Shown piece after piece: positions 24,895-41,430 of a DNA stretch of 51,099 bases. The number at the start of each line of letters is the position of its first letter. The stretch's first letter is position 1. Source of the DNA: Elusimicrobiota bacterium (GTDB lineage Bacteria; Elusimicrobiota; Elusimicrobia; UBA1565); NCBI GenBank assembly GCA_016196755.1, contig JACPXC010000003.1, forward strand, positions 1 to 51,099, given 5' to 3'. The notes under the pieces are model-generated. The model ran no database searches and was not told where the DNA came from. It saw only the letters and a list, made by a program, of their open reading frames with translations. A program made the position numbers and the translations under genes.

Positions 24895-25112
24895 TCGCCG
24901 AACTCCTTGCGCTTGATGAGGACGCTCAAGCCGAAGCCGTGCAGGACTTTCATGACCTTGCCGAGGTGGAGCGTGGGCTTGCCGTTCTCGAGCTCGGAGA
25001 GAAAGCGCGTTCCGACCCCGCAGAGGGCCGCGGCCTGCGCCTGCTTGAGGCCGGCATCCTTGCGCGCCTGTCGGACGATGCGGCCGATGTCCTCGGAGCT
25101 CTTTGCCGGCAT
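24891..25112 (-). CDS. hipB: HipB antitoxin, HTH repressor (HipBA module)
   Basis: 73 residues from ATG 25112. A Cro/C1-type helix-turn-helix fills about 10-62 (LKQAQAAALCGVGTRFLSELENGKPTLHL). It should bind HipA and repress the operon. The longer open frame upstream (to 25268) overlaps the operators and lacks conserved residues, so it is rejected. Three operators of the type TTCCCGNNCGGGAA lie upstream at 50-bp intervals. Confidence 0.88.
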   Translation of the reverse strand: MPAKSSEDIGRIVRQARKDAGLKQAQAAALCGVGTRFLSELENGKPTLHLGKVMKVLHGFGLSVLIKRKEFGE

Positions 25113-25132
25113 GTTCGAGGTGGTCAGATTAA

Positions 25133-25150
25133 TATTCCCGTTCGGGATTA
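25133..25150. promoter_or_regulatory. HipBA operator 1
   Basis: TATTCCCG-TT-CGGGATTA, with one mismatch between arms. It lies 20 bp upstream of the hipB start codon. Confidence 0.75.
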
Positions 25151-25182
25151 TTCCACGACATTGTTGACTGATTGGCACATAT

Positions 25183-25209
25183 TGTTCCCGAACGGGAATA
25201 TTATACCCG
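25183..25209. promoter_or_regulatory. HipBA operator 2 abutting a HipBST-type half-site
   Basis: TGTTCCCG-AA-CGGGAATA at 25183-25200, exactly 50 bp from operator 1. It is followed at once by TATACCCG at 25202-25209, the half-site used in front of hipBST. The stop codon of hipT lies inside this composite site. Confidence 0.7.
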
Positions 25210-26157: not shown

Positions 26158-26479
26158 GGGTCTCCCGCGGGCGGACGCTGACGGCGCCGATCGGCTCCTT
26201 GCCGGTGTGCAGCAGCAGGCGGAACTTGTCGGCCTTATCGATCTTCGCGGAGGCGCAGGTCAGCTCGAGGAGCCACCCTTCCGGCAGCAGCCCGTCGAAG
26301 AACGGGAACAGGGTCGGGGAGCGATAGGGGGTCTCCGTCAGAGGCATGGCGAGGCTGATCGGCAGGGCCTGCGGGTCGCGCAGATACTCGGGCTTGTAGG
26401 CGAACTCGAAGCCCCCCGGCTTCTTGATGAGCTCGCCGGCCTCCCTGTCTCCGTAAAGGACGATGGCGCGCTCTTCCAT
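26147..26479 (-). CDS. hipS: HipS antitoxin (HipA N-terminal-domain protein)
   Basis: 110 residues from ATG 26479. The sequence corresponds to the N-terminal subdomain of HipA: VLYGDREAGEL, SLAMPLTE and FFDGLLPEGW. In the known HipBST module HipS, not HipB, neutralises the kinase. The start overlaps the hipB stop by one base (TGATG) and the end overlaps hipT by 11 nt, so all three are co-translated. The longer open frame to 26518 lies inside hipB and is rejected. Confidence 0.88.
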   Translation of the reverse strand: MEERAIVLYGDREAGELIKKPGGFEFAYKPEYLRDPQALPISLAMPLTETPYRSPTLFPFFDGLLPEGWLLELTCASAKIDKADKFRLLLHTGKEPIGAVSVRPRETHGG

Positions 26480-26691
26480 CAGGCGTCCTCGCGCGGCAGG
26501 TCGATCGGCCCGAGGCATTTCCCGAACAGGAAGAGGACCTTGTTGACGGTATCGGTGCGCAGAGAGGCCTTGCCTTGCTCGAGGTCGCGGATGAAGCGCA
26601 GGCCGACCCCGGCCTTTTCGGCGAGGCGAGGTTGGGTGAGGCCGGCGCTCTTGCGTCTGTTTTTGACGAAGGCGGCAAGGGGTTTGTTCAT
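26479..26691 (-). CDS. hipB: HipB, HTH regulator of the HipBST module
   Basis: 70 residues with a helix-turn-helix at about 15-60 (LTQPRLAEKAGVGLRFIRDLEQGKASL). It is the first gene of hipBST. In such systems HipB represses the operon and augments neutralisation. A strong promoter overlapped by ATACCCGAT-type sites lies upstream. It is a distant homologue of the other HipB 1.6 kb downstream, and the deduced half-sites differ at only one base. Confidence 0.88.
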   Translation of the reverse strand: MNKPLAAFVKNRRKSAGLTQPRLAEKAGVGLRFIRDLEQGKASLRTDTVNKVLFLFGKCLGPIDLPREDA

Positions 26692-26698
26692 GGCTACC

Positions 26699-26776
26699 CT
26701 ATCGGGTATAAGTATTAGAAATTATACCCGATGAGGCACTATATTTCAATTGGGATAGAAAAATCATACCCGATAG
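26699..26776 (-). promoter_or_regulatory. hipBST promoter and operators
   Basis: On the minus strand TTGAAA (26749-26744), a 17-bp spacer and TATAAT (26726-26721) make a near-consensus promoter. Operator arms ATCGGGTATAA (26701-26711) and TTATACCCGAT (26722-26732) are a perfect 11-bp inverted repeat covering the -10. A third half-site, ATACCCGATAG at 26766-26776, lies upstream of the -35. Confidence 0.8.
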
Positions 26777-26785
26777 AGCCTGTTT

Positions 26786-27370
26786 TCATAGACTTAGGGG
26801 GGCAAGCGCCTCGTGAAGAATTTTTTTGGCTCCGGGGTTGCCGTACAGCTCCAAGTTCTCCTCTAGCTTAGAGCGGTCGAACTTGCTCAGGCTCGAGCGG
26901 AGGTTGCGCAAGACGGCGGACGTATCGTCGGGAAGCTTGCGCAGATTCTTGAGCAGATCGACCAGGAGGAACTCCTTGCTGAGTTCGGTCGGGTAAGCTG
27001 GGACGACGCGGAATGTAAAGCGCCTTCCCCCCAGCCTGAAGTCCCCGGTTCGTTTGTGGTTATAGACGAGGTGGTGGTTGTAGACCTGGGTGAGGCCCAG
27101 GCCGAGCCGGTTGAAGTAGGTGTAAGAGGTCAGCAGGAAATCGTCCGACTTGAGGAAGGCGCGGACGAGGTCCCGGTCCTCCGGCGGCGCGAAGCCGAAG
27201 ACGTTCTTCTCAGGGCGATAGTAGAGGCCGCCGGACAGCTTTCGGACCACGCCGCTCTCGACGAGCCGCTTGAGGTCTCGATCGACGGCGGTGGAAAGCC
27301 CCTCTAGGTCTTGGCGACGATAGACCTTTCCGAGCTGCATTCCGCTCTTGAGCTTCTCGGCGTTCTTCAT
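26786..27370 (-). CDS. Lone AbiEi-like (DUF6088-type) antitoxin
   Basis: 194 residues from ATG 27370. The N-terminus is a winged helix (YRRQDLEGLSTAVDRDLKRLVESGVVRKLSGGLYYRP), followed by the domain typical of AbiEi/DUF6088 antitoxins (LLTSYTYFNRLGLGLTQVYNHHLVYNHKR, FRVVPAYP). No nucleotidyltransferase is directly coupled to it: the next gene downstream is hipB of HipBST and the upstream AbiEii has its own overlapping antitoxin. It may be an orphan that controls another system or a survivor of toxin loss. The upstream open frame to 27502 is rejected because a -10 lies within it. Confidence 0.75.
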   Translation of the reverse strand: MKNAEKLKSGMQLGKVYRRQDLEGLSTAVDRDLKRLVESGVVRKLSGGLYYRPEKNVFGFAPPEDRDLVRAFLKSDDFLLTSYTYFNRLGLGLTQVYNHHLVYNHKRTGDFRLGGRRFTFRVVPAYPTELSKEFLLVDLLKNLRKLPDDTSAVLRNLRSSLSKFDRSKLEENLELYGNPGAKKILHEALAPLSL

Positions 27371-27379
27371 CCTGAAGAC

Positions 27380-27385
27380 AGTATA
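27380..27385 (-). promoter_or_regulatory. -10 of the lone antitoxin gene
   Basis: TATACT on the minus strand ends 9 nt before ATG 27370, giving a leader of only a few nt. No convincing -35 is seen. The rest of the 144-bp gap contains a direct repeat GGGTACTTG near 27458 and 27472. Confidence 0.45.
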
Positions 27386-27514
27386 GCCGAGTGGCGCACC
27401 ATGTGTAAGTATTTTTTGTAAAGATTCATGCACAATCAAGAGGCGGGAATGGCGCTTGTCGGGTACTTGAGGGGTACTTGTCGGCTTCTTATCGGCCAGC
27501 ACTCCGGGGAGGGG

Positions 27515-28426
27515 TCACAAACCAAGTTTCCTGCGCAGATTTTCCAGTTGCTCCTTTCTCTTCGCGGGGGCCATCTTGCGGATGTTCTGGAGCTTCCACT
27601 GGATGGCCGGCAGCTTATCCGCTCCGGGAACGCCCAAGAGGCCCCAGTCCGGTGAGCCCTCCTTGAGCGAGAGGAGAAAAGCCTTCTCGTCCTTGGTCAG
27701 CCCGGCATTCAACAGCGCGATCATCCGCTCTCGCGCGGCCGTAAGCTCAGCCAAAGTCACTGCTTCATCGGTCATGCCGCGGAAGCCGCCCTCGAAGAGG
27801 ACGGAGATATCCTGGGCCGCCGGCGCGATGACTTCGTGCATGGGGCGAGGATGGCTGGCCAGATAGACGACGAAAGCCTTCCGGATCTCGGGGGTGATCC
27901 CCTCGTTCTCCAGCAGGACCTTCACGTCGAACAGGTCGCGCGGGTGCTGGCGGTCGAGCGCGGCGCAGAGCTTGCCGCCATAGAGGTCCGCGCTATCGGC
28001 GGTAGCGATCACGGCGGAAAGGTCGAAGGCCGCGGCGGCCTTCTTCGATAGCTCGCGCGGCACCGCCGTGCCGACGGTCCCCCGGAGGATGAGATTGGGC
28101 TCGACCTTGACCATCCCGCCAGGGCCCGTCACGAGCAGCTTGGCGACCCTCTTCTCGACCAAGGCTTCCCGGACCGCGTGCCCGGCGCCCAGAGCGCGAG
28201 AAAGCCGCTCCTTGATCCGCTTGAGCGCGGCGTCGATCTCGGCCAGCGACTGCTCGCGCGGTCCCACGGGAAGATAGATGAGATCGATGTCCACCGAGAG
28301 CCGCGGCATGTCGCGCACGAAGAAGTTGATGGCCGTGCCGCCCTTGAGCGCGAAGCACTTCTCCACCGCCACATGGGGCAGCACGCGCAGCATGAGCCGG
28401 GTCTGCTCGAAGTAGGCGGCGTTCAT
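27515..28426 (-). CDS. AbiE-2 toxin: AbiEii nucleotidyltransferase
   Basis: 303 residues. The active-site pattern is FALKGGTAINFF then SVDIDLIYLP, with later YGGKLCAALDRQHPRDLFDVK, all typical of the AbiEii/DUF1814 group. It differs enough from AbiE-1 and AbiE-3 that the three are separate acquisitions rather than local duplications. The ATG overlaps the antitoxin stop by 4 nt (ATGA). It appears intact. Confidence 0.9.
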   Translation of the reverse strand: MNAAYFEQTRLMLRVLPHVAVEKCFALKGGTAINFFVRDMPRLSVDIDLIYLPVGPREQSLAEIDAALKRIKERLSRALGAGHAVREALVEKRVAKLLVTGPGGMVKVEPNLILRGTVGTAVPRELSKKAAAAFDLSAVIATADSADLYGGKLCAALDRQHPRDLFDVKVLLENEGITPEIRKAFVVYLASHPRPMHEVIAPAAQDISVLFEGGFRGMTDEAVTLAELTAARERMIALLNAGLTKDEKAFLLSLKEGSPDWGLLGVPGADKLPAIQWKLQNIRKMAPAKRKEQLENLRRKLGL

Positions 28427-29220
28427 GCTGGGATATGCTCTTTATCGTGGCGCTGATACGGCGTGCTTATCTGGAACTTCCGGTCGAAGTGCCCTCCCTT
28501 GACCAGCAGGCGCTTGCCCTTTCCGAGCTCGACGACGTCCAGCTTCAGCGCCGAGAGCCACTGATGCCCGCATATCTCGGCGAGCAGCAGGAAAAGCCGT
28601 TTGGCCTTTATCGAACGACAATTCTCCAAGAGCTGCTGCACGAGCTCCGGCCTCAAGGTGGCGAGGCTCTCCATCAATTGCTGGGCTTCCTCAAATCCCT
28701 GGCTTTCCGGCAGTTGGTCGAGGAGCTCGAGGATCGCCCGCTCCGGAGCGGAGAGGCGTATCTCGTAGTCCTCTATCTTCTTCTTGGTCAGGGCCAGGCC
28801 GGGGCTGGATTGAAAGAGGTTCGTCGCCATGCAGCGCGGCCGATCGCCCCAGTCGCGCTTGAGGAACCAACGCGGGGGCTTGGCCTTCGGGGGACCGAAG
28901 AGCCACTTCACGCCGCCGGCGCGCATGGGGAGGTAATGGGCGTAGCCTTGAAGCTCGAGCGCCGTCTTCCCGCCGGCGTGGAGTGGAAGGCCGAGCTGCT
29001 GCTGGAGCGCGTAAAGCCCGCCCGTCCATTCCACGGTTTCGTGGAGGCGGGCGTAGGCGCCGCGTCCTATCCGGCGCAGCCAGCCGAAGCGGCAATAGCG
29101 GTCTGCGAGCTGGCGAGGTATCTCCCGCTCGTCGAACCAACTCTGAACGGCGACGGCGCCTTTCGGCCACTCCGCGAGCAGCTGTGAGAGTTTGCCTTGG
29201 CTGGGGGCCTGGTCTGGCAT
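28423..29220 (-). CDS. AbiE-2 antitoxin: AbiEi-3-type
   Basis: 265 residues. An N-terminal winged-helix domain (SQLLAEWPKGAVAVQSWFDEREIPRQLADRYCRFGWLRRIGRGAYARL) precedes a longer AbiEi-3-type domain (GGKTALELQGYAHYLPM, LSAPERAILELLDQLP, LEVVELGKGKRLLV-like end). This is a different antitoxin class from AbiE-1. It should neutralise and co-regulate the overlapping AbiEii gene. The start codon follows an AT-rich leader with no ribosome-binding site. A promoter and palindrome lie about 75-100 bp upstream. Confidence 0.88.
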   Translation of the reverse strand: MPDQAPSQGKLSQLLAEWPKGAVAVQSWFDEREIPRQLADRYCRFGWLRRIGRGAYARLHETVEWTGGLYALQQQLGLPLHAGGKTALELQGYAHYLPMRAGGVKWLFGPPKAKPPRWFLKRDWGDRPRCMATNLFQSSPGLALTKKKIEDYEIRLSAPERAILELLDQLPESQGFEEAQQLMESLATLRPELVQQLLENCRSIKAKRLFLLLAEICGHQWLSALKLDVVELGKGKRLLVKGGHFDRKFQISTPYQRHDKEHIPA

Positions 29221-29295
29221 TAGTTTATTTATTTCACAATACGACTACCCAGGGTATCCAAAATAGGATTTTTATAAACCTACTGTCTTACATAT

Positions 29296-29324
29296 AGTCT
29301 AACTCGACAATCGTAGATTGTCAA
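29296..29324 (-). promoter_or_regulatory. AbiE-2 promoter with palindromic operator
   Basis: Minus-strand TTGACA (29324-29319), a 17-bp spacer and TAGACT (29301-29296). The palindrome GACAATC-GTA-GATTGTC at 29306-29322 covers the -35 and spacer. The 29221-29341 gap is strikingly AT-rich against its surroundings. Confidence 0.65.
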
Positions 29325-29341
29325 GTAGAGCAATAATTAAA

Positions 29342-30598
29342 CTATACGCGGACGGTTTCCTGGCCCACCAACCCGGCCAGGTAGAACGACCCAATGACCG
29401 CCCCCGCTATCGAGGGGTCCTGCCTCAGGTGCTCGATGGCAGCCCCAGCCTCGCAGATGACGCCTACCTCTTTGGCGCCGGCTGCTCTTAGGGCTTGGGC
29501 CAGCTTATCGGCCGGCAGCGCCCGCGGGGAACCGGGCTGGGTGGCGATGAACCGGTCCGATAGAGAGGCAGCCTGAACGGCCAGTCTCTCCCACTCCTTG
29601 TCGGCCAAGACGCCCATGACGATAAGGGGATCCTGACTGAAGTAGGGCGACCGCTTCCAGGTCTTGGCGAACGCCTCCATGGCGGCGGGGTTATGGGCGC
29701 CGTCTAGGACGATGCGCTTGGTGCGCTCCTTCCTCACTTCGAACCGGGCGGGCCAGCGGGTCTTCGCTAGGCCTGCGAGAGCGCCCCGTTGGTGGATGGG
29801 CAGCTTGAGCAGCTCGAGAGCCGTGAGGACCATGGCGGCGTTCTTTAGGGCGGCGTCCCCAAGGAGAGGGACGACGACCTCGGTCCCTCCTTGGGTCTTG
29901 GCGCGCTGGGTGCCGTTCTCCCAGTCTTCGCTGATCCTCTCCAAAGCAGGCGGGGCGCTGCGATATTTCGCCCCTACCTGCTTGGCCTTGGATGTCAGTA
30001 CGGCCTTGGACAGGGGCTCGACCTCTCCGCAAAGAAAGGGCGCCCCCCCCTTTATGATGCCGGCCTTCTCTTCGGCGATCTTCTCGAGGGTATCCCCTAG
30101 GTGCTGCATGTGGTCGTAGTCGATGGAGGTGACGACGGTCATCAGGGGGTCTTTTAAGGCGTTGGTGGCGTCCAGACGCCCGCCCAGGCCGGTCTCGATG
30201 ACGGCGGCTTCGACGCCCTCCTGCTTGAAGTGCATGAACGCCGCGGCGGTGACGAGCTCGAAGTAGGTGGACTCCTCGGGCTCCGCTGCTTTGAGTTTGA
30301 GAATGTGGCGGGCGAAGTCCGCCTCGGAGATGTTCCGGCCGTCGATGGAGATCCTCTCCAGCGGGGTGACGAGATGCGGGGAGGTGTAGAGGCCGGTCTT
30401 GAGTCCCCCGCCGGTCAGGGCCGATGCCAGCATCGCACAGAACGAGCCCTTCCCGTTGGTGCCGGCGACGTGGATGGCCGGGAGGCCATCGTGGGGGTTG
30501 GCTACCGCGGCGAGCAATCCCGCTATCCGGGAAAGCCCGAGCTTCCAGCGCGTCTCCTGCCTGCCGTCCAGGAAGGAGAGCGCTTCGGCGCAGCTCAT
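29342..30598 (-). CDS. folC: Folylpolyglutamate/dihydrofolate synthase
   Basis: 418 residues. The Mur-ligase-type P-loop is AGTNGKGSFCAML; LGGRLDATN and the central GAHNPAAMEAF are FolC signatures. It adds glutamate to dihydropteroate and folates in the cytosol. Its ATG overlaps the murA stop by 4 nt, so it is coupled to murA. Length is normal. Downstream lies the AT-rich promoter region of AbiE-2, so the operon ends here. Confidence 0.92.
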   Translation of the reverse strand: MSCAEALSFLDGRQETRWKLGLSRIAGLLAAVANPHDGLPAIHVAGTNGKGSFCAMLASALTGGGLKTGLYTSPHLVTPLERISIDGRNISEADFARHILKLKAAEPEESTYFELVTAAAFMHFKQEGVEAAVIETGLGGRLDATNALKDPLMTVVTSIDYDHMQHLGDTLEKIAEEKAGIIKGGAPFLCGEVEPLSKAVLTSKAKQVGAKYRSAPPALERISEDWENGTQRAKTQGGTEVVVPLLGDAALKNAAMVLTALELLKLPIHQRGALAGLAKTRWPARFEVRKERTKRIVLDGAHNPAAMEAFAKTWKRSPYFSQDPLIVMGVLADKEWERLAVQAASLSDRFIATQPGSPRALPADKLAQALRAAGAKEVGVICEAGAAIEHLRQDPSIAGAVIGSFYLAGLVGQETVRV

Positions 30599-31857: not shown

Positions 31858-31895
31858 CAAAGGAATGCCAGGGACGTGGCGGACAGGAAGATCTG

Positions 31896-31942
31896 CAACT
31901 CTCATAAGCTTAAGGCAGCTACTTCGAATCCAGCCCCCGCGA
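31896..31942 (+). tRNA. tRNA-Met-like 3' remnant (not functional)
   Basis: CTCATAA at 31901-31907 is a perfect Met-type anticodon loop (CAT). After a normal spacing it is followed by TTCGAAT (31923-31929), the T-loop, then CCAGC and an acceptor-like CCCCGCG plus A. The T-stem has two mismatches, the anticodon stem is poorly paired, and no proper D-arm or 5' acceptor is found. It is best read as a decayed tRNA 3' half, such as an attachment-site relic at the edge of the insert between murA and the barrel gene. Confidence 0.3.
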
Positions 31943-31990
31943 CGGTCCTGACTGATGAATATCGTCGAATGCTTTGCTAGCTTCGCAGGT

Positions 31991-32428
31991 TCAGCGCTCG
32001 AATACCCAGTTTCTGTAGGGGCCGGGTTGAAATTTGTCGATGCAACGAAAGCCGAGCTTCACGTACATCTGCTTCATTTCAGGCCCAACATCGTTGCAGG
32101 CGCCGACTTGCGTATGCCGGGCTACAACAGCGCGAATGAGTTCGGAGGCGACTCCTCGGCGCCCATGGTCCCGCGCCGTTATGACCAGCGTGATGAACGC
32201 CACCTCGCCTTCCATCACGTAGACGGCGAATCCGACGACTTGACCTTCCAGTTCGGCGAGTAGAAGCCGTTTGTTTCCCTTGTCGACGGCCGTGCGAATG
32301 AGCGCACGCTGCTCATTGTCCTGGTAATAGAGCTTGGACTTTCCTCCGATCCAGGTGTCCGCGATTGCGAACACGGCCGGGAGGTCGGCGGCCGTCCCTT
32401 CCCGCACACCGACTGGATCGGTACTCAT
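31991..32428 (-). CDS. GNAT-family N-acetyltransferase
   Basis: 145 residues. The acetyl-CoA-binding motif is seen in ITARDHGRRGVASELIRAVV (R/Q-x-x-G-x-G/A type), preceded by strand VAFITLVI, and the C-terminal MYVKLGFRCI completes the GNAT fold. Substrate is unknown. No ribbon-helix-helix partner gene is next to it, so it is not obviously a GNAT toxin. It lies 16 bp downstream of the coiled-coil gene on the same strand and probably shares its transcript. Both belong to the insert between murA and the barrel gene. Confidence 0.8.
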   Translation of the reverse strand: MSTDPVGVREGTAADLPAVFAIADTWIGGKSKLYYQDNEQRALIRTAVDKGNKRLLLAELEGQVVGFAVYVMEGEVAFITLVITARDHGRRGVASELIRAVVARHTQVGACNDVGPEMKQMYVKLGFRCIDKFQPGPYRNWVFER

Positions 32429-32444
32429 GGGGAGGCGCCCTCCG

Positions 32445-33788
32445 CTAGACGGGGGTAGAGCCCTTGAGCTTGGCCATCACGGCTTCTACCGTGCTCGGGA
32501 TGAGCTTCTGAACCGCCTCGATGGCCGGGGTAAGCGGCGTGACGTCCTGCTGCTTTCCCTCGTAGATGCTTCCAGGACGGCGGGCGAAGACTTCCAGGAC
32601 GCGATTGCACAGGGCCTGGAGGGCCTCGGGGTTAGACGCCAATTCGCGCTTGTAGCCTTCGAAAGATGTGGAGACCGCTTCCTTGTTGGCATACTCCTCT
32701 TCCATCTGGACGGCCATCATGTACTGACGCCCGGCGACGATGGCAAGCCAGATCGGCGGGACGATCCAAGGCAAGCGTTGCACGAAGTGACGTCTGATCG
32801 CGTCCCACTCCTGCAACTCCTTCAGGCCTCCGTCAAAGTAGGCGATGATCAGAAGAGAGCCGATACATCCAAAGAGAACCTTCATCCACCACTTGCGAGC
32901 ATCTTCGTGGCGCTTCCTCAACGTGGAGAACGAGGCGGCCAAGCCGGCACTCGTGGCAAGCGGCAAGAGCCCCTCAATCTTGTCCTTCATCGCCGCGAAA
33001 TCGGTCTGCAGCGAGGCCAAGGTGGTCTCGTAATCCGCAACCTGTTTCTCGAGCGTGAGGCACTTTCCCGCGAGCTTGCTGACCTGCTCAACTTTTGCCT
33101 TGGCATCTTTCTCAAGCGATTCGATGGTGGCAAGCGCAGTCTTTGAGCGCTCCTGGAGTTCGTTGGACGTCGTCGTCGCCTTCTGCATGGAGGCGATGTG
33201 CGTCGCGGAGGCTTCTTTTGCCGCGGAAACCTGCGCCAGATCAGCCACGATCGCCTTGGTTCCTTCGCGGACGGACTGGGCGAGGTCCTCGATGCCCTTC
33301 TTGGTCTCGGAGATGTTCGCCTGGACGGCAGCAGCTTTGCCCGACGTCTCGGTAACGGACTTGGCGGCCTCGTCGGCGGTCTTTCGAGAGCTTGTTATCG
33401 CCGTAGCGTCGGCTTCGCTGGTCGAGCGGAGGTTGGCGAAGCTCTGAGCGACGGCTTCAATCTCAACGCGCTTCTTTGCGATGACCGCCGTGTCGCTCTC
33501 CATTGAGCCCTTGAGCTTGGCAGCCGCGCCCGAGTGTTCCTCGACGAGCCCTTTGGCATGGCTCGCTCGCAGCGCCTCATTGTCAGCCTTCATCTGCGCT
33601 TCACCCGCCTTGGCAAGGAGCTGAATCAGTTTTTCGTCGGCTTCTGCGGCCTTCCTGTTCGCGCCCTCGATCACCTTGAGGTATTCCTCGGCGCGCTTGC
33701 CCACTTGCTCGAGATGCTCAAGGGAGGACTTGTGGTCGACTTCAGTCTGCGGAGCGGACGAGGCGGGGGCTGAATTGGTGTCGGCCAT
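32445..33788 (-). CDS. Large coiled-coil membrane protein, unknown function
   Basis: 447 residues from ATG 33788, chosen because AAGGAGG lies 9 nt upstream; the open frame to 33839 is rejected. Residues about 20-270 are an almost continuous coiled coil of Ala, Glu, Lys, Ser and Thr. Two hydrophobic segments follow (LFGCIGSLLIIAYF and LPWIVPPIWLAIVAG), then a ~100-residue C-terminal cytosolic-type tail. The shape, a long helical sensor rod with a membrane hairpin, is seen in some phage-defence and chemoreceptor-like proteins, but no family was recognised. It is co-oriented with a GNAT gene and opposite to a HEPN protein. Confidence 0.7.
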   Translation of the reverse strand: MADTNSAPASSAPQTEVDHKSSLEHLEQVGKRAEEYLKVIEGANRKAAEADEKLIQLLAKAGEAQMKADNEALRASHAKGLVEEHSGAAAKLKGSMESDTAVIAKKRVEIEAVAQSFANLRSTSEADATAITSSRKTADEAAKSVTETSGKAAAVQANISETKKGIEDLAQSVREGTKAIVADLAQVSAAKEASATHIASMQKATTTSNELQERSKTALATIESLEKDAKAKVEQVSKLAGKCLTLEKQVADYETTLASLQTDFAAMKDKIEGLLPLATSAGLAASFSTLRKRHEDARKWWMKVLFGCIGSLLIIAYFDGGLKELQEWDAIRRHFVQRLPWIVPPIWLAIVAGRQYMMAVQMEEEYANKEAVSTSFEGYKRELASNPEALQALCNRVLEVFARRPGSIYEGKQQDVTPLTPAIEAVQKLIPSTVEAVMAKLKGSTPV

Positions 33789-34009
33789 GAAAGTAAAACC
33801 TCCTTGATGCATACCGTCGAATTGAATTTCGTGCGCCACCTCGACGAGGGAACAGTGGCGGTGCGGGGAGCTTCAGGAAGGAGCTGCGGCTCCCGGCAAC
33901 GTCGTCCGTCGACGAGAGGACGTATTGTAGCACGCGCCCGGCAGTCACGTCGATGGCAGAATCCCGATATAAAAGCGGCGAATCGTGTAACTGATATGAT
34001 CGGCTCGAG

Positions 34010-34132
34010 ATGTCCCAGACTCCCGACGGCGACCTCGATCAGACTTGCGGAAACTGCGGTCCACGAATCGCACGGGGCTATTCGGGACGATCGATTCATC
34101 CTAGACGACCAAATGAAAGACAAAGCTAAGGC
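34010..34132 (+). CDS. Possible 40-residue leader ORF
   Basis: ATG 34010 opens a 40-codon frame beginning MSQTPDGDLD and containing a CGNC pair. An extended -10, TGATATGAT, ends 9 nt before it. The frame overlaps the start of the HEPN gene (ATG 34113) by 20 nt in another frame, so it could couple translation. There is no homology evidence. Confidence 0.2.
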
Positions 34133-36230
34133 TAGCCCGAAGCCCGAGCCCATAGGGTATGAGCTCTTCGAGAATGGGCTCGATTTCATCCTCTCCGGGC
34201 TTGAGCACCTGGGTAGCAATCCTCTCGCGAAACGAGACTATAAGTTCGGGATATTGCATCTCGCAGCTGGCATCGAGCTCATCCTCAAGGAACGATTGCG
34301 GCGCGAACACTGGAGCCTGCTCTTCGAGAACGTAGACAAAGCCAATACCGCGGCGATGACGAGCGGCGACTTCAAGAGCGTCACATTCGAGTCGCTTGTC
34401 GATCGCTTGGCTGGCGTGGCCCAGGTCACAATCGCCAAGCATGAGTTCCAGGTGATCGACGACCTCAGGAAGCGTCGCAATAAGGTTCAGCACCTACATT
34501 TCACCGAGACTCCCGAGGTCATTGAGAGCCTTGCCGCGAAAGCCGTCGGCTTCGCGATAGACTTCATCAAAGACGAGCTCTCGCCCAAGGACATGACCTC
34601 CGCGGAAGGTTCGGCCTTCAACACGATCAAAGACAAGCTGAAAGACTTCGAGGCCTTTGTCACGAAGCGGCTCGATCATCTCAAGCCAATCTTGGCGAAA
34701 GCTAAGAAGGACGGCGCCACCATCGTTGAGTGCATTCGCTGTTTCCAAGAGGCGCTTGTGGTTGATGGCGAAGAACTCAAGTGCCGGTTTTGTAGCTCCA
34801 CATTTGAGCCGCTCGAACTCGCCGATGATTGGGCAAGCCAGCGCCTAGGGCTGGTCCTGCTGTTGGCGGCACCCGTCGGCGCCCAGGACCGGCCCGATGA
34901 AGGCTCGATGTTCGGAGCTGCCCCGGAGGTGAAGGAGCCCCCCCAGCCCGACGCCTTCACGCGCGGCGACGCCGTCGACAACCCGCTGTCGATCGGCGGG
35001 CGCTACTGGCAGCGTTGGCAGATGTCCAAGCCCGAGGGTCAGGCCACTTCCCGCTCCCCCGTTTCGGCCCCCCTCCAGTTCGACGCCTTCATGGACGCCC
35101 GCCCCAGCGACCGGGTCCGGGGATTTGTCCAAGGCCGGCTATTCTACGACCCCACCCGGGACCGCTCGGGCGGCGGAGCCGTCGGGTCCACCTCGGGCGC
35201 CCCGTTGTCCTTGTCGAGCTCCGTCTCCCCGTCCCAGAGCAACCCCAACGTAGCGCTCGACCAAGCCTGGCTCAAGTTCGACATCGAGAGGAAGGTCTTC
35301 GTCACCGCCGGCAAGCAGCACGTCAAATGGGGCGTATCGCGCTTCTGGAACCCCACCGATTTCTTAAATCCCGCCCGGCGAGACCCCTTGGTCGGCAGCG
35401 ACCAGCGGCTAGGCAACACCATGGTCAAGTTCAGCGTGCCGCTGGAAGACAAGGAGGCGAACCTCACGGCCCTCATCCTGCTCGACAACCCGCGGCCCGC
35501 CGGCACCTTGGGCCAGACCGGGGCCGCCTTCCGGGCCGAGAAGGTCTTTCATGGCGCCGAGCTGGGCGCTGAGGCCGTAGCGCGCGGGAACCTCACGCCC
35601 TCCTACGGGGCCGACGTCTCCATGCCCTTGGGCCCCTTCGACGTCTACGCCGAGGCCGCCGTTCAGACCCAAGCGCCCGGGCCGCGATTTAGGCGTACCG
35701 GCACGCCCACCACGGGCGCCAACATCGCCACGCTGTTTGCGGTCGACAACCCCAAGGGCCCGTTCTATCAAGCCAGCGGCGGCGGCACCTACACCTTCGC
35801 TTGGCAGGCCAACCGCACCGCCACGGCGGGCGTCGAGTACTTCTACAACGAGCTGGGCTACGACGGCGCCGACATCTATCCCCTGCTCATCTTCCTCGGC
35901 AGCTACCAGCCCTTCTACACCGGCCGGCACTACGGGGCGTTCTACGTGACCGCCGAGGGCCCCGACGCAGGCAAGCACACCACCTACACCTTCTCGACCT
36001 TGAGCAACCTCTCGGACGGGTCGTTCATCTCGCGCATCGACTTCGCCTGGCGCTTCCTCACCTATTTGACTTTCGAGGCCTTCGCCGACCAGCACTTCGG
36101 CACGCGCGGCGGAGAGTTCCGCTTCGCGCTGAACACCCCGGCCCTGACCTATAATGGGGCGGCGGTGGCTCCCATCAACCTCCCCGCCACGGTCTACGAC
36201 CTCGGGGTGGGGCTGAGGCTAAGCTTCTAG
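34113..36230 (+). CDS. In-frame chimera: HEPN/zinc-ribbon protein fused to outer-membrane barrel
   Basis: 705 residues from ATG 34113. Residues 1 to about 237 resemble a cytosolic HEPN-type family: an Rx4H motif (Arg122...His127), helical packing, then a zinc ribbon with CIRC (207, 210) and CRFC (224, 227). At about residue 240 the sequence changes abruptly to LGLVLLLAAPVGAQ, the hydrophobic core and cleavage site of a signal peptide. It continues as a ~455-residue beta-barrel (KQHVKWGVSRFWNPTDFLNPARRDPL) ending in Phe, as expected for a BAM substrate. The first part seems 3'-truncated and the second 5'-truncated. An insertion boundary at about 34835-34850 is the simplest explanation. The gene is followed by P1 with a 15-nt gap. 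Confidence 0.7.
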   Translation: MKDKAKASPKPEPIGYELFENGLDFILSGLEHLGSNPLAKRDYKFGILHLAAGIELILKERLRREHWSLLFENVDKANTAAMTSGDFKSVTFESLVDRLAGVAQVTIAKHEFQVIDDLRKRRNKVQHLHFTETPEVIESLAAKAVGFAIDFIKDELSPKDMTSAEGSAFNTIKDKLKDFEAFVTKRLDHLKPILAKAKKDGATIVECIRCFQEALVVDGEELKCRFCSSTFEPLELADDWASQRLGLVLLLAAPVGAQDRPDEGSMFGAAPEVKEPPQPDAFTRGDAVDNPLSIGGRYWQRWQMSKPEGQATSRSPVSAPLQFDAFMDARPSDRVRGFVQGRLFYDPTRDRSGGGAVGSTSGAPLSLSSSVSPSQSNPNVALDQAWLKFDIERKVFVTAGKQHVKWGVSRFWNPTDFLNPARRDPLVGSDQRLGNTMVKFSVPLEDKEANLTALILLDNPRPAGTLGQTGAAFRAEKVFHGAELGAEAVARGNLTPSYGADVSMPLGPFDVYAEAAVQTQAPGPRFRRTGTPTTGANIATLFAVDNPKGPFYQASGGGTYTFAWQANRTATAGVEYFYNELGYDGADIYPLLIFLGSYQPFYTGRHYGAFYVTAEGPDAGKHTTYTFSTLSNLSDGSFISRIDFAWRFLTYLTFEAFADQHFGTRGGEFRFALNTPALTYNGAAVAPINLPATVYDLGVGLRLSF

Positions 36231-36245
36231 GGCTCAAGGAGAGAC

Positions 36246-36773
36246 ATGAGAACGACCATGCTGGCCGTATTCGCTTTGCTGGCCGCGGCGGCAGCCCCCC
36301 GCGCCGAGACGCTCGGCGCCGGAGAGCTCGTCGTCGAGGGGAAGGTGACGATGCTCAACCCCGACAGCCGCCACGTCAAGATAAGGGACGCCGCCGGCTT
36401 CGGGACCCTGGTCCGCATCCCCCTCGACCTCGACTTCACCCGCCTCCGCCTGGGCGAGCGCGTCACGCTGCGCTGCGTGAAGCCCCTGGCCCTGGCGATC
36501 GGCCCGGCCCCCAAGCCCCGGGCCGCCGCGCGCATGGCTCCCAGCGACAAGCCCGCCCCGCGGCAGGGCCTGGAGGTCATGGCTAAGATCGTGGGGATCG
36601 ACCGGTACCAGCGCACGCTCAAGGTCAGGGCCCCCGACGGCGCCGTCATGGACCTTATCGTCTCGCCGGCCGCCCCAGGCTTCGACGTCGCCAAGGTCGG
36701 CGACGCCGCCCTCCTCCGCTACGTCGAGACCGAGGCGCTGGGCTTAGACGAAGGCTGGCGCCTCAAGCTCTAG
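36246..36773 (+). CDS. Exported two-module beta protein P1
   Basis: 175 residues with signal peptide (cleavage near PRAE at about 20) and ribosome-binding site AAGGAGA. The mature protein holds two related modules of about 57 residues: one from GKVTMLNPDSRHVKIRDAAG to LRCVKPLALAI, and one from AKIVGIDRYQRTLKVRAPDG to LRYVETEALGL. Each has the pattern R-x-L/V-K-V/I-x-D/A-x-x-G, then an LxxGD/E and an R-Y/C-V-E/K, suggesting small beta-barrels (OB-like). It follows the barrel gene in the same operon. Three paralogues lie at 39.4-40.9 kb. Function unknown; periplasmic binding or barrel-associated roles are possible. Confidence 0.7.
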   Translation: MRTTMLAVFALLAAAAAPRAETLGAGELVVEGKVTMLNPDSRHVKIRDAAGFGTLVRIPLDLDFTRLRLGERVTLRCVKPLALAIGPAPKPRAAARMAPSDKPAPRQGLEVMAKIVGIDRYQRTLKVRAPDGAVMDLIVSPAAPGFDVAKVGDAALLRYVETEALGLDEGWRLKL

Positions 36774-36848
36774 TCAGGGGCCTCGACGCCGCAAGAATAA
36801 TAACTTCAATAAATAATATAAAACGACTGTAATTAGAATGAATATATA

Positions 36849-36886
36849 TTGTTTTTTGTCACATAAACAGCTATATTAGTGTGACA
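36849..36886 (+). promoter_or_regulatory. AbiE-3 promoter and operator
   Basis: TTGTTT at 36849-36854, a 17-bp spacer and TATATT at 36872-36877. Inverted arms TGTCACA (36857-36863) and TGTGACA (36880-36886) bracket the -10. The -10 ends 10 nt before ATG 36888. The 36790-36887 stretch is AT-rich, unlike flanking DNA. Confidence 0.65.
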
Positions 36887-36887
36887 G

Positions 36888-37502
36888 ATGAAGCCCACCA
36901 TCCCTCGTAGCCTGGAGGACGCCATCCTTGCCAGCCTCAACCGGCGCGGCCGCGGCTGCGTCGTCTTCGGAGAGAACTTCTTTTCCCTCGCCAGCCCGGA
37001 GGCCGTACGTCAGGCGCTGTCCCGGCTAGCCCACAAAGGAACGCTCCGGAGGATCGCTACCGGCCTCTACCACTTCCCCGAGATCAACGAGAGATTGGGC
37101 GGGGAACTGCCGCCCTCGATGGAGACGGCGGCGCGCGCCATAGCCCGGCGCACAGGGAGCCGGATCGTGGCCACAGGAGCACAGGCGGCCAATCTGCTGG
37201 GGCTATCCACCCAGGTCCCGGCCAAGCCCATCTACTTGACTGACGGGACCTCGCGCCGGGTCGCCGTCGGCGACTATGCGGTCACCTTCCGCCATGCCGG
37301 CCCTCGGCGCATGGCGATCCGGCACGATATCAGCGTCCTGCTCTTCGAGGCGCTGCGCTATATAGGCCGGGCGAACGTGGACGATCAGGTCGTGGCGCGG
37401 CTGCGCGACTCGCTTCCCCCGGAGGCCAAGGCCGAGCTGCGCCGAGACTTGTCGCGCGCCTCGATCTGGATGCGGCCCATCGTACGGCGCGTCACGGAAT
37501 AG
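36888..37502 (+). CDS. AbiE-3 antitoxin (DUF6088/AbiEi-like)
   Basis: 204 residues. An N-terminal winged helix (about 5-60, VRQALSRLAHKGTLRRIATGLYHFP) is followed by the typical MFETAARAIARRTGSRIVATGAQAANLLGLSTQVPAKPIYL-like region (here METAARAIARR and ATGAQAANLLGL) that marks this antitoxin group. It should repress its own promoter and neutralise the downstream nucleotidyltransferase. The antitoxin is intact although the toxin carries a stop codon. The module interrupts the P1-P4 paralogue array. Confidence 0.85.
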   Translation: MKPTIPRSLEDAILASLNRRGRGCVVFGENFFSLASPEAVRQALSRLAHKGTLRRIATGLYHFPEINERLGGELPPSMETAARAIARRTGSRIVATGAQAANLLGLSTQVPAKPIYLTDGTSRRVAVGDYAVTFRHAGPRRMAIRHDISVLLFEALRYIGRANVDDQVVARLRDSLPPEAKAELRRDLSRASIWMRPIVRRVTE

Positions 37503-37506
37503 ATCC

Positions 37507-38535
37507 ATGGATTCGGTGGCGAAAAGCTCGCGGCGCGACCGCACCCAACTCTTCGAGGCCGCGGAGGGCAAGCACGCGCCGAGACTGCCCGCGTCAGTCT
37601 TCGAGAAGGACTTCTGGGTCTGCTAGACGCTCCACAGGCTCTTTACAGTGCTCAAGTTCCGGCCGCAGCTGATCTTCAAGGGCGGCACGTCCCTCGCGAA
37701 GGTCTTCAGAGTCGTCGACCGATTCTCAGAAGACGTCGACCTATCTCTCAGCCGGAGCGACTTGGGGTTCGGAGACGAACACGATCCCGAGCAAGCCGGC
37801 ATCGGGAAAAACGAGGCGCGGCGGCGGCTCGAAGCGCTCGTGGAGCGGTGCCGGCGGACCATCGAAGAGAAGTTCCTCCCGGGGCTGCGCCAAGACTTCG
37901 CGAGCGTACTGGGCGGCTCCGGCTGGTCGCTCGACTTGGACAAGGACGACCCGCAGACCCTCGTCTTCGCCTATCCGGAGAGCGATGCCACCTCGAAGCT
38001 GAGATATATCCGCCCGGCGATCCGCCTTGAGATGGGCGCTCGATCGGACGACTGGCCCGCCGTCGAGGCCGAGCTCACGCCCTACGCCGCCGAGGACTTC
38101 CCGGGCGTATTCGCCCAGCCGAAGTGCCTCGTGCGGACCCTGAGCGCCGAGCGCACGTTCTGGGAGAAGGCGACGCTGCTTCATGCCGAATGCCATCGGC
38201 CCGCGACGAAGGCCACAGCGGAGCGCCACTCGCGGCACTACTACGATCTTTACTGTCTCTCGCGCCATGCGATTGGGACAGAAGCCCTCAAGCGCGGGGA
38301 CCTGCTGGAGCGCGTCGTGCAGCACAAGAGTTTCTTCTTCGCTAGCGCTTGGGCCGACTATGCGACGGCCAAACCCGGCACGTTTCGCCTAGTGCCCGGC
38401 GAACGCGCTTTGGTCGTGCTAAGCAAGGATTACGCTGAGATGCAGGCGATGATGTTCGGAGGCTCTCCCAGGTGGGACGACATCATCGCGGAGCTCGGAC
38501 GCCTCGAAGCTCAGATCAACGGCACCCGCTCCTAA
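37507..38535 (+). pseudogene. AbiE-3 toxin (AbiEii) with in-frame TAG at codon 40
   Basis: The frame opens at ATG 37507, 4 nt after the antitoxin stop, and reads 39 codons ending EKDFWVC before TAG at 37624-37626. It then continues in the same frame with TLHRLF...IFKGGTSLAKVF...EDVDLSLSR to 38535. The nucleotidyltransferase GG/DxD site is intact after the stop. Homologous AbiEii proteins usually have a Trp-containing segment here, so a single TGG-to-TAG change is the likely cause. RF1 is encoded in this window, so TAG should terminate. A GTG at 37648 could restart translation just before the active site. Otherwise the gene is not decayed, which suggests a recent mutation. Confidence 0.8.
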
Positions 38536-38606
38536 CCGTCGCTGGCCAGATAAAGGACGGCTACCGGGACGCCTAAGGCGACCAGATAAAGGAAGGCGTG
38601 CAGCAT
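38532..38606 (-). CDS. Possible 24-residue single-span membrane peptide
   Basis: ATG 38606 opens MLHAFLYLVALGVPVAVLYL, almost wholly hydrophobic, then ASDG and stop. GAGGGG lies just upstream. It starts 4 nt after the preceding small ORF and follows the exported gene at 38765-39208 on the same strand. Its end overlaps the AbiEii stop tail to tail. Supported only by context and composition. Confidence 0.25.
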   Translation of the reverse strand: MLHAFLYLVALGVPVAVLYLASDG

Positions 38607-38610
38607 CCCC

Positions 38611-38754
38611 TCATCCCCGCAGGAGCTGGATCCGCCGGCTCCCTTCCGGCAGCTCCTCATCATGCGGCGCCTTCGGCGAGAAGCCCTTCGCGCGCCGCGC
38701 GTGGGACGCCTCGGCGTACAGATTGGCCTGCAACGACGGTCTCACGTGAGTCAC
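38611..38754 (-). CDS. Possible 47-residue basic small protein
   Basis: GTG 38754 opens a 47-codon frame (VTHVRPSLQANLYAEASHAR...) ending at TGA 38611. It lies 10 nt after the stop of the exported gene S1 and directly before the hydrophobic mini-ORF. No ribosome-binding site is clear. The 38536-38764 gap holds nothing else recognised. Confidence 0.25.
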   Translation of the reverse strand: MTHVRPSLQANLYAEASHARRAKGFSPKAPHDEELPEGSRRIQLLRG

Positions 38755-38764
38755 GGTTGACACC

Positions 38765-39208
38765 TCAGTAGCGCAGCTTGTAGCCGAACCAGAACGAATC
38801 GTTCAGAAGACTGTTCTCCCTCATCCCCAGCGACGCGTCGGCGGACCAGCCCTCGTCGGTCCTTCCGAGACCGACGCTCAGCAGGCGGGCCGTGCCGTAG
38901 GCCAGGCCGGGCTGGGCCAGGCGCACCTTCCAGCCCGCCACGTTGACCGAGCCGCGCCAGCCGAAGACCACGCCGGCCAGCCCCGCACCGGCGGCGAAAC
39001 CCGGCGTCCAGCTGTCCTTGTCCCGGTAGTGGTCCTGGACCTCCTTGACCTGCCCCAGGTCCGCGGCCCATCTGCGGACCGCGCCGAAGACCAGGCTGGG
39101 GACCTCGCCCTGGCTCAGGGCCCTGTAGGGCATAGGGCTGGGCTCGGCGGCGCGCGCGGCGCCCGTCGCAAGGAGCAGAGTGACCAGCAGAAGCCGGACC
39201 GTCTCCAT
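38765..39208 (-). CDS. Exported protein S1, paralogue of S2 at 40844-41329
   Basis: 147 residues from ATG 39208. The signal peptide (LLLVTLLLATGAARA) ends near 21. The mature part has the segments EVPSLVFGAVRRWAADL, WTPGFAAGAGLAGVVFGW and LSVGLGRTDEGWSADASLG, and ends FWFGYKLRY. The same layout occurs in S2, so they are paralogues. The Gly-rich alternating strands and aromatic end suggest a small outer-membrane or periplasmic beta protein. It faces the P1-P4 array on the opposite strand. The start is chosen over an upstream ATG at 39238 because it gives a normal signal peptide. Function unknown. Confidence 0.6.
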   Translation of the reverse strand: METVRLLLVTLLLATGAARAAEPSPMPYRALSQGEVPSLVFGAVRRWAADLGQVKEVQDHYRDKDSWTPGFAAGAGLAGVVFGWRGSVNVAGWKVRLAQPGLAYGTARLLSVGLGRTDEGWSADASLGMRENSLLNDSFWFGYKLRY

Positions 39209-39351
39209 GGCGATAGTGTGGAGTACGGCGGTCGTCACGACATCAATACATGGTCAAAGAAGCATCAAGTCCTCCGGCACATAAGCCTTACGGCAGGGCA
39301 ACGCCGCCGTCCGGCCGGGCGCGGTACCATCCTTTAAGCAGGGAGGCCGCC

Positions 39352-39828
39352 ATGAAATGGTTCCTCGCCGGCGCGTTGGCGTTCTTTACCGTGGAGGGGC
39401 AGGTGATCATGCTCAACCCGACGAGCAACCGCCTGAAGGTCGAGGACGTGGCGGGGCAGAAGACGCTCATCCGCATGCCGCCGGAGTTCGACCTGACCCG
39501 GCTCAGGCTGGGCGACCAGGTGATCGCGCGCTGCCTCAGAGGGAAGGCCTTGGAGATCGGGAAGGCCCTGCCCGCCGACGGCGCGCGTCTGGCCCCGGCC
39601 GACGAGGGCGGGGCGGGGCCGGACCAGCGCCTCACGCTGCGGGTCCATGCCCTCCGCCGCGAGGAGCGCGAGGTGCTGCTCCTGGCCGAGGACGGCACCC
39701 TGCTCCACCTGCTCGTGGAGCCCGCCGCCCGGGGCTTCGACGAGACCGAGCCCGGCGACGTCGTCAGCGTCCGCTACGTCGAGCCGGAGGTCATCGCCCT
39801 GGCCGTCGACGAGTCGCTCAGGCTGTAG
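39352..39828 (+). CDS. Exported two-module beta protein P2
   Basis: 158 residues from ATG 39352, with GGAGG 7 nt upstream. It aligns with P1, P3 and P4: module one runs from GQVIMLNPTSNRLKVEDVAG to RCLRGKALEI, module two from HALRREEREVLLLAEDG to RYVEPEVIAL. The hydrophobic leader (MKWFLAGALAFF) leads straight into module one without the usual cleavage region, unlike its paralogues. It may therefore remain membrane-anchored or have suffered a small deletion. It is separated from P3 by 13 nt. Confidence 0.65.
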   Translation: MKWFLAGALAFFTVEGQVIMLNPTSNRLKVEDVAGQKTLIRMPPEFDLTRLRLGDQVIARCLRGKALEIGKALPADGARLAPADEGGAGPDQRLTLRVHALRREEREVLLLAEDGTLLHLLVEPAARGFDETEPGDVVSVRYVEPEVIALAVDESLRL

Positions 39829-39841
39829 GAAAGGGGGAAAA

Positions 39842-40387
39842 ATGATGAAGAAGACCTTGGTCGCCGCGCTGGCCCTGCTGTCCGCCGTGGCCGTCCCGCA
39901 TGGGGCGCTCCTGCCCGAGACGGAAGCGCTGCTGGCGGGCCGGGTCACGATGCTCAACCCCGCCACGCGCCGCCTGGCCCTCATCGACGGCTCGGGGAAC
40001 CGGGTCCTCCTGCGCATCCCCCTGGGCTACGACCTGACCCGGATCCGGCTCGGCGACCGGCTCATCGCGCGCACCGCGCGGGCCGTGGCTCTGGCGCTCT
40101 CGGAGACCGGCGCCTCCCCCACCCTCGAGGCCGAGCGCCTGGCCCCCAAGGACGAGCCGGCCTACGCGCCCCGCTCGACGCTCTCGGAGCTCCGCGGCCG
40201 GGTCGCGCGCATCGACCGGGAGCGCGGCGAGCTGCGGATCCTCGCCTGGGACGGCACCGTCCTCGACCTCGAGGTGCCGTCCGCCGCGCGCGGCTTCGAG
40301 AAGGCCGAGGCCGGCGACGAGGTGCTCATCCGCTATCTCGACACCGCGGTGCTGGGCTTGGCCGTGGACAGAGGCGCGAAGATCTAG
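39842..40387 (+). CDS. Exported two-module beta protein P3
   Basis: 181 residues; ATG 39842 or the next codon 39845, after a GGGGGA ribosome-binding site. The signal peptide is followed by module one (GRVTMLNPATRRLALIDGSG to ARAVALAL), a 45-residue linker rich in Pro/Glu, and module two (GRVARIDRERGELRILAWDG to RYLDTAVLGL). The strong match of both modules to P1, and of module one to module two, shows internal duplication before gene duplication. It is in line with P2 and P4, with gaps of 13 and 8 nt. Confidence 0.68.
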   Translation: MMKKTLVAALALLSAVAVPHGALLPETEALLAGRVTMLNPATRRLALIDGSGNRVLLRIPLGYDLTRIRLGDRLIARTARAVALALSETGASPTLEAERLAPKDEPAYAPRSTLSELRGRVARIDRERGELRILAWDGTVLDLEVPSAARGFEKAEAGDEVLIRYLDTAVLGLAVDRGAKI

Positions 40388-40395
40388 GAGGCGGT

Positions 40396-40863
40396 ATGAA
40401 GAACATCCTGCTGGCCGTGCTGGTTTTCTGCGCCGCCCAGGCGGCGTCCGCGACCGAGGCGATCCTCTCCGGGGACGTGACCAGGATCGACGCCGCGGCC
40501 CGACAGCTCAAGGTCGAGGACGTCGCCGGGAACACGACCGTCATCCGCGTCCCCCCGACGCTCGAGGTCTTCGACCGGCTCAAGACCGGCGACCGGCTCT
40601 ATATGATCTACACCAAGCCGGTGGCCCTGGCGATCGGCCGGATCCCGGCCGAGACGACGCCCGCGGCCCTGGACGTCACGGCGCGCATCGAGGACGTCGA
40701 CCGCGGCGCGCGCGAGCTGCGGCTGCGCGCCCCGGACGACTCGACCTTGCGGCTGGAGGTGCCGGCCGGGACGCCGGGCTTCGAGACGGCCAGGGTCGGC
40801 GAGACCGTGCCGGTCCGCTACGTCGAAGCGGTGGCGGTGGCCATCAGGGAGCCCATGCGCTAA
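40396..40863 (+). CDS. Exported two-module beta protein P4
   Basis: 155 residues, ATG 40396 with TAGGAGG upstream. A clear signal peptide ends near ASA-T at 19. Module one is GDVTRIDAAARQLKVEDVAG to YTKPVALAI, and module two is ARIEDVDRGARELRLRAPDD to RYVEAVAVAI. It is the most compact member of the array. Its last 20 nt overlap the 3' end of S2 on the other strand. Confidence 0.65.
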   Translation: MKNILLAVLVFCAAQAASATEAILSGDVTRIDAAARQLKVEDVAGNTTVIRVPPTLEVFDRLKTGDRLYMIYTKPVALAIGRIPAETTPAALDVTARIEDVDRGARELRLRAPDDSTLRLEVPAGTPGFETARVGETVPVRYVEAVAVAIREPMR

Positions 40864-41329
40864 AGCGGAGCTTGTAGGCCACGGCCACCGATTGGCCGAG
40901 GACCCGCCCGTCGCGCAGGCCGATCGCCGCCTCGGCGGTCCAACCCTTGTCGGGCCGTCCCAGGCCGATGCTGCACAGCTTGCCGTTGCCCGAGCGGAGG
41001 CTATGGTGGAGCTGGCGGCCCGAGGTGTCCAGCATGAGCTCCCACGCCCCCAGCTCCACCGACCCTTCCCCGCCCTCGAGGTAGCCGAAGGCCGCCCCGG
41101 CCACCCCGGCCCCGACCTTGAAGCGCGGGCTCCAGGCATGGCGGTCGCGGATGTACTCCTCGAAGAGCTTCATCTCGGAGAGCCCGGCCGCCCAGTCCTT
41201 GACCGCCCCGAACAGCAGGTTGGGGACCTCGCCCGGCCCGGCGGGCCGGTAGGTGCCGGGCTGGGCCGCCCCTGAGAGCGCGGGAAGGAGGAGGGCCAGG
41301 GCCAAGCCGCGGAAGGCTGTCCGTACCAT
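40844..41329 (-). CDS. Exported protein S2, paralogue of S1
   Basis: 161 residues with signal peptide to about residue 22 and ribosome-binding site TGGAGG. Shared blocks with S1 are GEVPNLLFGAVKDWAAGL, WSPRFKVGAGVAGAAFGY, CSIGLGRPDKGWTAEAAIG and VAYKLRF near the C-terminus. It lies on the strand opposite to P1-P4 and overlaps P4 tail to tail. It is preceded by an unusual nested palindrome that could be its operator. Function unknown; its fixed association with the P family suggests a joint role at the cell surface. Confidence 0.62.
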   Translation of the reverse strand: MVRTAFRGLALALLLPALSGAAQPGTYRPAGPGEVPNLLFGAVKDWAAGLSEMKLFEEYIRDRHAWSPRFKVGAGVAGAAFGYLEGGEGSVELGAWELMLDTSGRQLHHSLRSGNGKLCSIGLGRPDKGWTAEAAIGLRDGRVLGQSVAVAYKLRFSAWAP

Positions 41330-41343
41330 GCCTCCAGTATGGC

Positions 41344-41388
41344 TGACACTCTTTTGTCGCGACAGTCACAGACTGTCAGAAAGTGTCA
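41344..41388. promoter_or_regulatory. Nested palindromes upstream of S2
   Basis: Outer arms TGACACT (41344-41350) and AGTGTCA (41382-41388) enclose the inner palindrome GACAGTC-ACA-GACTGTC (41361-41377). A further TGTCAG follows at 41395. AT-rich DNA continues to prmC. The TGTCA core resembles the AbiE-3 operator 4.5 kb away. It may be an operator for S2 or a relic of another module. Confidence 0.5.
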
Positions 41389-41430
41389 AAATAATGTCAG
41401 GTTAATAAATTTTACTTTATTTTATATTGA

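Follow-up and report, generated by a model that had tools for sequence, protein, structure and literature searches.

Background

Proteins of the HEPN superfamily carry an RNase active-site motif, Rx4-6H, in which a polar residue typically follows the arginine, and DUF3644 is listed among the HEPN families (PMC3710099). The HEC-08, PDC-S64 and DUF3644 proteins held in PADLOC-DB as candidate defence proteins are one of the two groups to which the locus described here comes close. The other consists of porin-like outer-membrane barrels encoded beside LolA-like and ABC-permease genes, with the porins of known structure as their counterparts at the level of fold.

In the window analysed (51,099 nt of an Elusimicrobiota contig, JACPXC010000003.1), representatives of both groups occupy a single reading frame. 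An initial annotation had read this frame as an in-frame fusion of a HEPN/zinc-ribbon protein to an outer-membrane barrel, created by an insertion. We favour, at a probability of about 0.8, an explanation in which the frame is a scar of illegitimate recombination inside a laterally acquired island, that is, a real and genome-specific junction of two foreign segments.

The fused reading frame

The frame and its parts are as follows.

34113–36230, plus strand: HEPN-barrel frame of 705 aa with no internal stops; stop codon at 36228–36230
34113–34849, plus strand: HEPN/zinc-ribbon N-terminal part of the HEC-08/PDC-S64/DUF3644 kind, 3' end missing (partial PADLOC profile coverage, 11-sequence alignment)
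34476–34493, plus strand: HEPN RxxxxH motif RNKVQH, residues 122–127 (R, N and H invariant in the alignment)
34731–34793, plus strand: first zinc ribbon, C207, C210, C224 and C227 (homologues have more CxxC pairs, which are missing here)
34758–34760, plus strand: putative internal GTG start (AGAGG 5 nt upstream; would place some 30 residues of acidic n-region ahead of the signal-peptide core)
34836–34860, plus strand: recombination joint, best estimate about 34845–34850 (end of HEPN similarity, start of signal-peptide similarity, GC3 change-point)
34845–34883, plus strand: barrel signal-peptide h-region and cleavage site, between LGLVLLLAAPVGA and QD, now internal (counterpart of the N-terminal signal peptides of homologues L026 and L028)
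34884–36230, plus strand: mature porin-like outer-membrane barrel, intact as far as its C-terminal Phe (full-length identity of 55% to L026, AlphaFold2 strands, porin matches)

The HEPN/zinc-ribbon part does run without a stop into the barrel, as had been claimed, and both halves are matched by homologues. The frame opens upstream at 33804; ATG 34113 is the start favoured by homology, the N-termini of homologues falling near it in the 11-sequence alignment. As both alternative frames have stops across the joint, a missed or hidden frameshift can be dismissed, and a frameshift in place of recombination is further rejected because the passage from HEPN to barrel similarity leaves no room for a HEPN tail. 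About one third of random joints would be expected to be in frame, so that the open frame alone is no evidence of selection.

Residues 6–234 of the fusion match the PADLOC profiles HEC-08 (2.6e-29), PDC-S64 (1e-27) and DUF3644 (2e-23), at profile positions 7–218 of 358 for HEC-08 and 4–230 of 339 for PDC-S64. In the alignment, R122, N123, H127 and the four cysteines are all invariant. The HEPN domain of the HEC-08/PDC-S64 family is thus present with its RxxxxH motif, and of the C-terminal zinc-ribbon array only the first ribbon is found. Homologues carry one to three extra CxxC pairs beyond that ribbon, past the point, at ...FEPLELADDWASQRLG, where the HEPN part of the window ends, which bears out the proposal that the left part lacks its C-terminal end. 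This half has no Pfam or NCBIfam family match; a single-protein HEPN query found no related HEPN in viral contigs, and a sequence search of solved structures gave no convincing relatives. Relatives were found by tblastn in 210 plasmid records, at up to 36% identity, and some of these adjoin integrases, toxin-antitoxin genes or the Qat antiphage system. Its AlphaFold2 model, for which the alignment held no homologous rows, was of low confidence and was left out. Judged by sequence, the left half is a candidate for an RNase of the antiphage type.

The relatives of the barrel are encoded by separate ORFs and are 34–55% identical to it. The nearest lie on contigs of metagenome-assembled genomes labelled Bdellovibrio (55%), Muproteobacteria (49%) and Spirochaetia (48%), followed by “Klebsiella” (36%, a doubtful label), Myxococcales (36%) and Deltaproteobacteria (34%). 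All of the nearest relatives are unfused, and wherever the 5' end is intact an ordinary signal peptide stands at the N-terminus; L028, for instance, has MAGIEKPISTALLLCLALSATAQDRPNEDALFG where the window has QRLGLVLLLAAPVGAQDRPDEGSMFG. These homologues possess the start codon and n-region that the right part had been said to lack. The presence of a signal-peptide core and cleavage site inside the frame was likewise confirmed, since LGLVLLLAAPVGA (residues 245–257) is the hydrophobic maximum of the entire chain and forms the core of the barrel's signal peptide. The barrel thus agrees with its relatives in sequence and fold; the cleavable N-terminal signal peptide with its own start is replaced by an internal core and cleavage site. 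AlphaFold2 modelled this half with fair confidence (pLDDT about 80 for residues 290–705, loops excepted), and Foldseek matched the predicted barrel to porins with E-values of 3e-13 and above, a probability of 1.00 and 8–13% identity. As with the left half, there was no match to a Pfam or NCBIfam family.

A LolA_like gene (PF17131) lies directly upstream of the barrel in all five homologous loci that hold upstream DNA; it is preceded by FtsX-type permeases and, in three of the five, an ABC ATPase is also present. The window contains none of these LolA_like, permease and ABC genes. The genome's sole LolA_like match, on contig C12, lies near an ABC ATPase and a low-similarity barrel that matches over 38–47 residues only, and the idea that the partner genes had moved elsewhere in the genome was rejected on this ground. 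The set of FtsX-type permeases (joined by an ABC ATPase if the contig extends far enough), LolA_like protein and Pfam-less barrel recurs in metagenome-assembled genomes assigned to different phyla (L026, L028, L029, L030 and L031) and looks like an uncharacterised envelope export system. One of these contigs, L030, is labelled Klebsiella pneumoniae, probably wrongly, its nearest relatives being delta-proteobacterial or myxobacterial.

Similarity to HEPN proteins gives way to similarity to the barrels within about 15 nt of 34845–34850. Along the frame, GC3 has one strong change-point at 34920, with a 2-unit support of 34836–34947 and a log-likelihood gain of 20.1, compared with at most 7.8 in 300 shuffles. 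To the left of the joint GC is 55% and GC3 0.72, while to the right these are 68–71% and about 0.90–0.91. Homology boundaries and base composition therefore agree with the position first put forward for the junction, about 34835–34850. No long direct or inverted repeat was found at about 34.85 kb, and the DNA of the joint is single-copy in the genome, for which reasons a repeat-mediated joint was rejected; unique DNA free of long repeats fits illegitimate joining.

Searches of 341 genomes of the phylum, of the public genome contigs scanned, of plasmid and phage records with the HEPN half and of plasmids with the barrel half brought up no fused homologue. A genuine fused HEPN-barrel gene family, the same architecture recurring across taxa, is rejected at the scope of the genome, the phylum and the public collections. 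The fusion looks like a genome-specific scar and not like a new protein family.

The island between prmC and murA

Relatives from within the genus, the family and the order have prfA, prmC and murA side by side. In all five relatives read (L080, L081, L082, L083 and L085), prfA, prmC, murA and the Mur ligase gene are contiguous, and the ROK gene and/or the gene at 20623 comes next after the Mur ligase. The spacer between prmC and murA is 16–20 nt in two congeneric genomes but 9,569 bp in the window, where it contains the following.

31862–41430: composite island between the housekeeping genes prmC and murA, 9,569 bp, absent from the five relatives
32445–33839, minus strand: coiled-coil protein (GC3 0.76, in the low-GC3 segment of the HEPN part; no match at the relatives' locus)
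36246–36773, plus strand: small protein whose N-terminus resembles a signal peptide, its frame starting 16 nt past the barrel stop; a member of a four-copy family in the insert
36888–38535, plus strand: AbiEi (DUF6088)/AbiEii toxin-antitoxin pair (profile matches, including PADLOC)
39250–39828, 39845–40387 and 40396–40863, plus strand: three more paralogues of the gene at 36246

The insert begins right after the conserved murA leader (...GATTCTACAAA) and its other end is the prmC stop codon; no convincing target-site duplication or inverted repeats were found at these ends. Read from the left, it encodes a GNAT protein, the coiled-coil protein, the HEPN-barrel fusion, a first small secreted-type protein and the AbiE pair; beyond these lie the other three members of the small-protein family and, on the opposite strand, a third family present twice. 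GC3 of the insert genes is 0.70–0.76 to the left of the joint and 0.82–0.97 to the right, so that the insert looks composite, with the fusion at an internal seam. AbiEii (37648–38535) starts at position 48 of 309 of the best PADLOC model, so that it may lack its N-terminus or have been given the wrong start.

The four small secreted-type paralogues, the later copies being about 40–44% identical to the first, have no Pfam or NCBIfam match and are absent from 15 related genomes, occurring only in this insert. Interleaved with them are the members of the two-copy family (38765–39238 and 40844–41329, minus strand), which are 38% identical. A second genome-specific insert, at about 23850–29345 between the Mur ligase and ROK genes, contains HipA genes and a DUF6088-like gene as well as an AbiEi/AbiEii pair; in one HipA gene the N- and C-terminal parts lie in separate frames. 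With toxin-antitoxin genes in both inserts, the locus behaves as an insertion hotspot for such genes.

Origin and fate of the fusion

Truncation of both halves, the joint and the island are observed features of this DNA. In the recombination that we favour, a gene for a HEPN-type candidate RNase would have been cut after its first zinc ribbon and joined to a barrel gene that had been severed where its signal peptide begins. The HEPN protein would thereby have lost a tail of roughly 40–130 residues, to judge from its homologues, and the barrel its start codon, n-region and ribosome-binding site, and it would also have been parted from its usual upstream neighbours, the LolA-like and ABC-permease genes. 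As base composition differs between the two sides, the sources were probably different. Neither half has a known close parent, so that the precise position of the break and the sequence of events are inferred. Of the proposal that an insertion made the joint, it holds that the segment lies inside a 9.57-kb insert; the joint itself may just as well have arisen by deletion or by the end-joining of two pieces acquired separately. The results support the initial annotation on every point that could be checked, the exception being its mechanism of insertion, which is unproven.

The main product would be a cytosolic HEPN-ribbon protein whose barrel tail misfolds or is degraded. In the most likely case, translation of the HEPN half begins at its own start with the barrel as a passenger, and this half may still fold and cut RNA despite the truncation. 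With its signal sequence now internal, delivery of the barrel would be lost or minor, and its export is probably lost or inefficient; any minor delivery might proceed by weak initiation at GTG 34758, or with the internal signal first serving as a type II anchor and later being cleaved. On this reading the barrel would be a remnant young enough to have acquired no stop. As a counterpoint, the intact 1.38-kb barrel frame could mean continued selection.

That the joint is an artefact, two unrelated contigs having been merged at about 34.85 kb in a way absent from the cell, is suggested by the 67 contigs of the assembly, by the coincidence of the joint with a sharp change in base composition and by the presence of the fusion in one genome only, and a misassembly inside the island is conceivable. 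We consider this quite unlikely. Redoxin-polA-rhomboid-rho-prfA-prmC at the right end of the contig and murA-Mur ligase-ROK at the left end are parts of a single conserved locus in its native order, so that a single false join at 34.85 kb is insufficient: it would not restore the native order opposite, and at least two would be needed. Nor does the DNA of the joint have a second genome copy or a long repeat that could mislead an assembler. The possibility of a chimera at the junction had been raised at the outset, and the native flanks on both sides argue against it; a simple chimera is unlikely, the argument from the flanks being strong but not final since it is drawn from the assembled sequence.

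If the recombination joint is accepted as real, the barrel might still be made and exported without the HEPN part, from GTG 34758 (or CTG 34851), with an unusually long or a minimal signal peptide. The search for internal starts yielded this GTG as a candidate only, with AGAGG 5 nt upstream, and the signal peptide retains its h-region, the V-G-A cleavage motif and an Arg immediately ahead of the h-region. We nevertheless regard such export as unlikely, as the n-region from GTG 34758 would be acidic, some 30 residues long and burdened with half a zinc ribbon, a short Shine-Dalgarno-like match easily arises by chance, and the remaining start-like codons (CTG/TTG, 34851–34863) leave almost no n-region. 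A functional two-part protein, in which the internal signal holds the HEPN RNase at the inner membrane while the barrel is exported, cleaved or not, would make use of the fact that both active parts are intact, RxxxxH with the first zinc ribbon on one side and a full, stop-free barrel with its cleavage site on the other. In RodZ the first transmembrane segment lies far from the N-terminus and targeting is co-translational through SecA (review PMC9360617); such inner-membrane proteins set a precedent for internal targeting, and the internal signal might likewise insert as an anchor. This reading is very unlikely, as the two-part architecture occurs in no second genome, each part lacks conserved pieces of its own family, and chance alone gives an in-frame joint in about one third of cases. 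A folded cytosolic domain of 244 residues ahead of the signal peptide of an outer-membrane protein is, moreover, expected to impair export. It is extremely unlikely that the fusion is both expressed and useful, with a cleavable internal signal, the barrel in the outer membrane and the HEPN RNase at the inner membrane; were it so, it would be an abortive-infection effector tied to the state of the envelope.

The scar is best read as ordinary genome plasticity. It offers a clean, datable-looking case of the damage and joining of genes by defence-type inserts where separately acquired segments meet, and it calls for caution in annotation, as pipelines would call an “outer-membrane protein with HEPN domain” of 700–800 residues that is a member of no family. 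Should the product be made and sorted against expectation, it would be a natural test of the delivery of outer-membrane proteins by a signal peptide behind a large cytosolic domain.

Comparison with known systems

The left half resembles the HEC-08/PDC-S64/DUF3644 candidate defence proteins in its HEPN domain with R-N-x-x-x-H and in the first zinc ribbon, and Streptomyces plasmid proteins of this kind are 32–36% identical to it across nearly its whole length. It differs from them in that the C-terminal zinc-ribbon pairs are missing (the HEC-08 profile is unmatched beyond position 218 of 358) and the protein ends in a barrel. The right half shares with the LolA/ABC-linked barrels 34–55% identity across the mature barrel, the motifs DQAWLKFD and WG.(S/T)R.WNP.D included, but unlike them it is without its own start, n-region and LolA/ABC neighbours and is fused behind a HEPN domain. 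The outer-membrane protein family DUF1302 (PF06980) is matched weakly, at E 0.026 and below the curated cut-off, by one barrel homologue only (L031), whereas the barrel of the window has no Pfam match. With the porins of known structure (C. jejuni MOMP, OccAB1, OprB and others) it shares a predicted barrel fold at only 8–13% sequence identity and with no relative in the PDB at the level of sequence.
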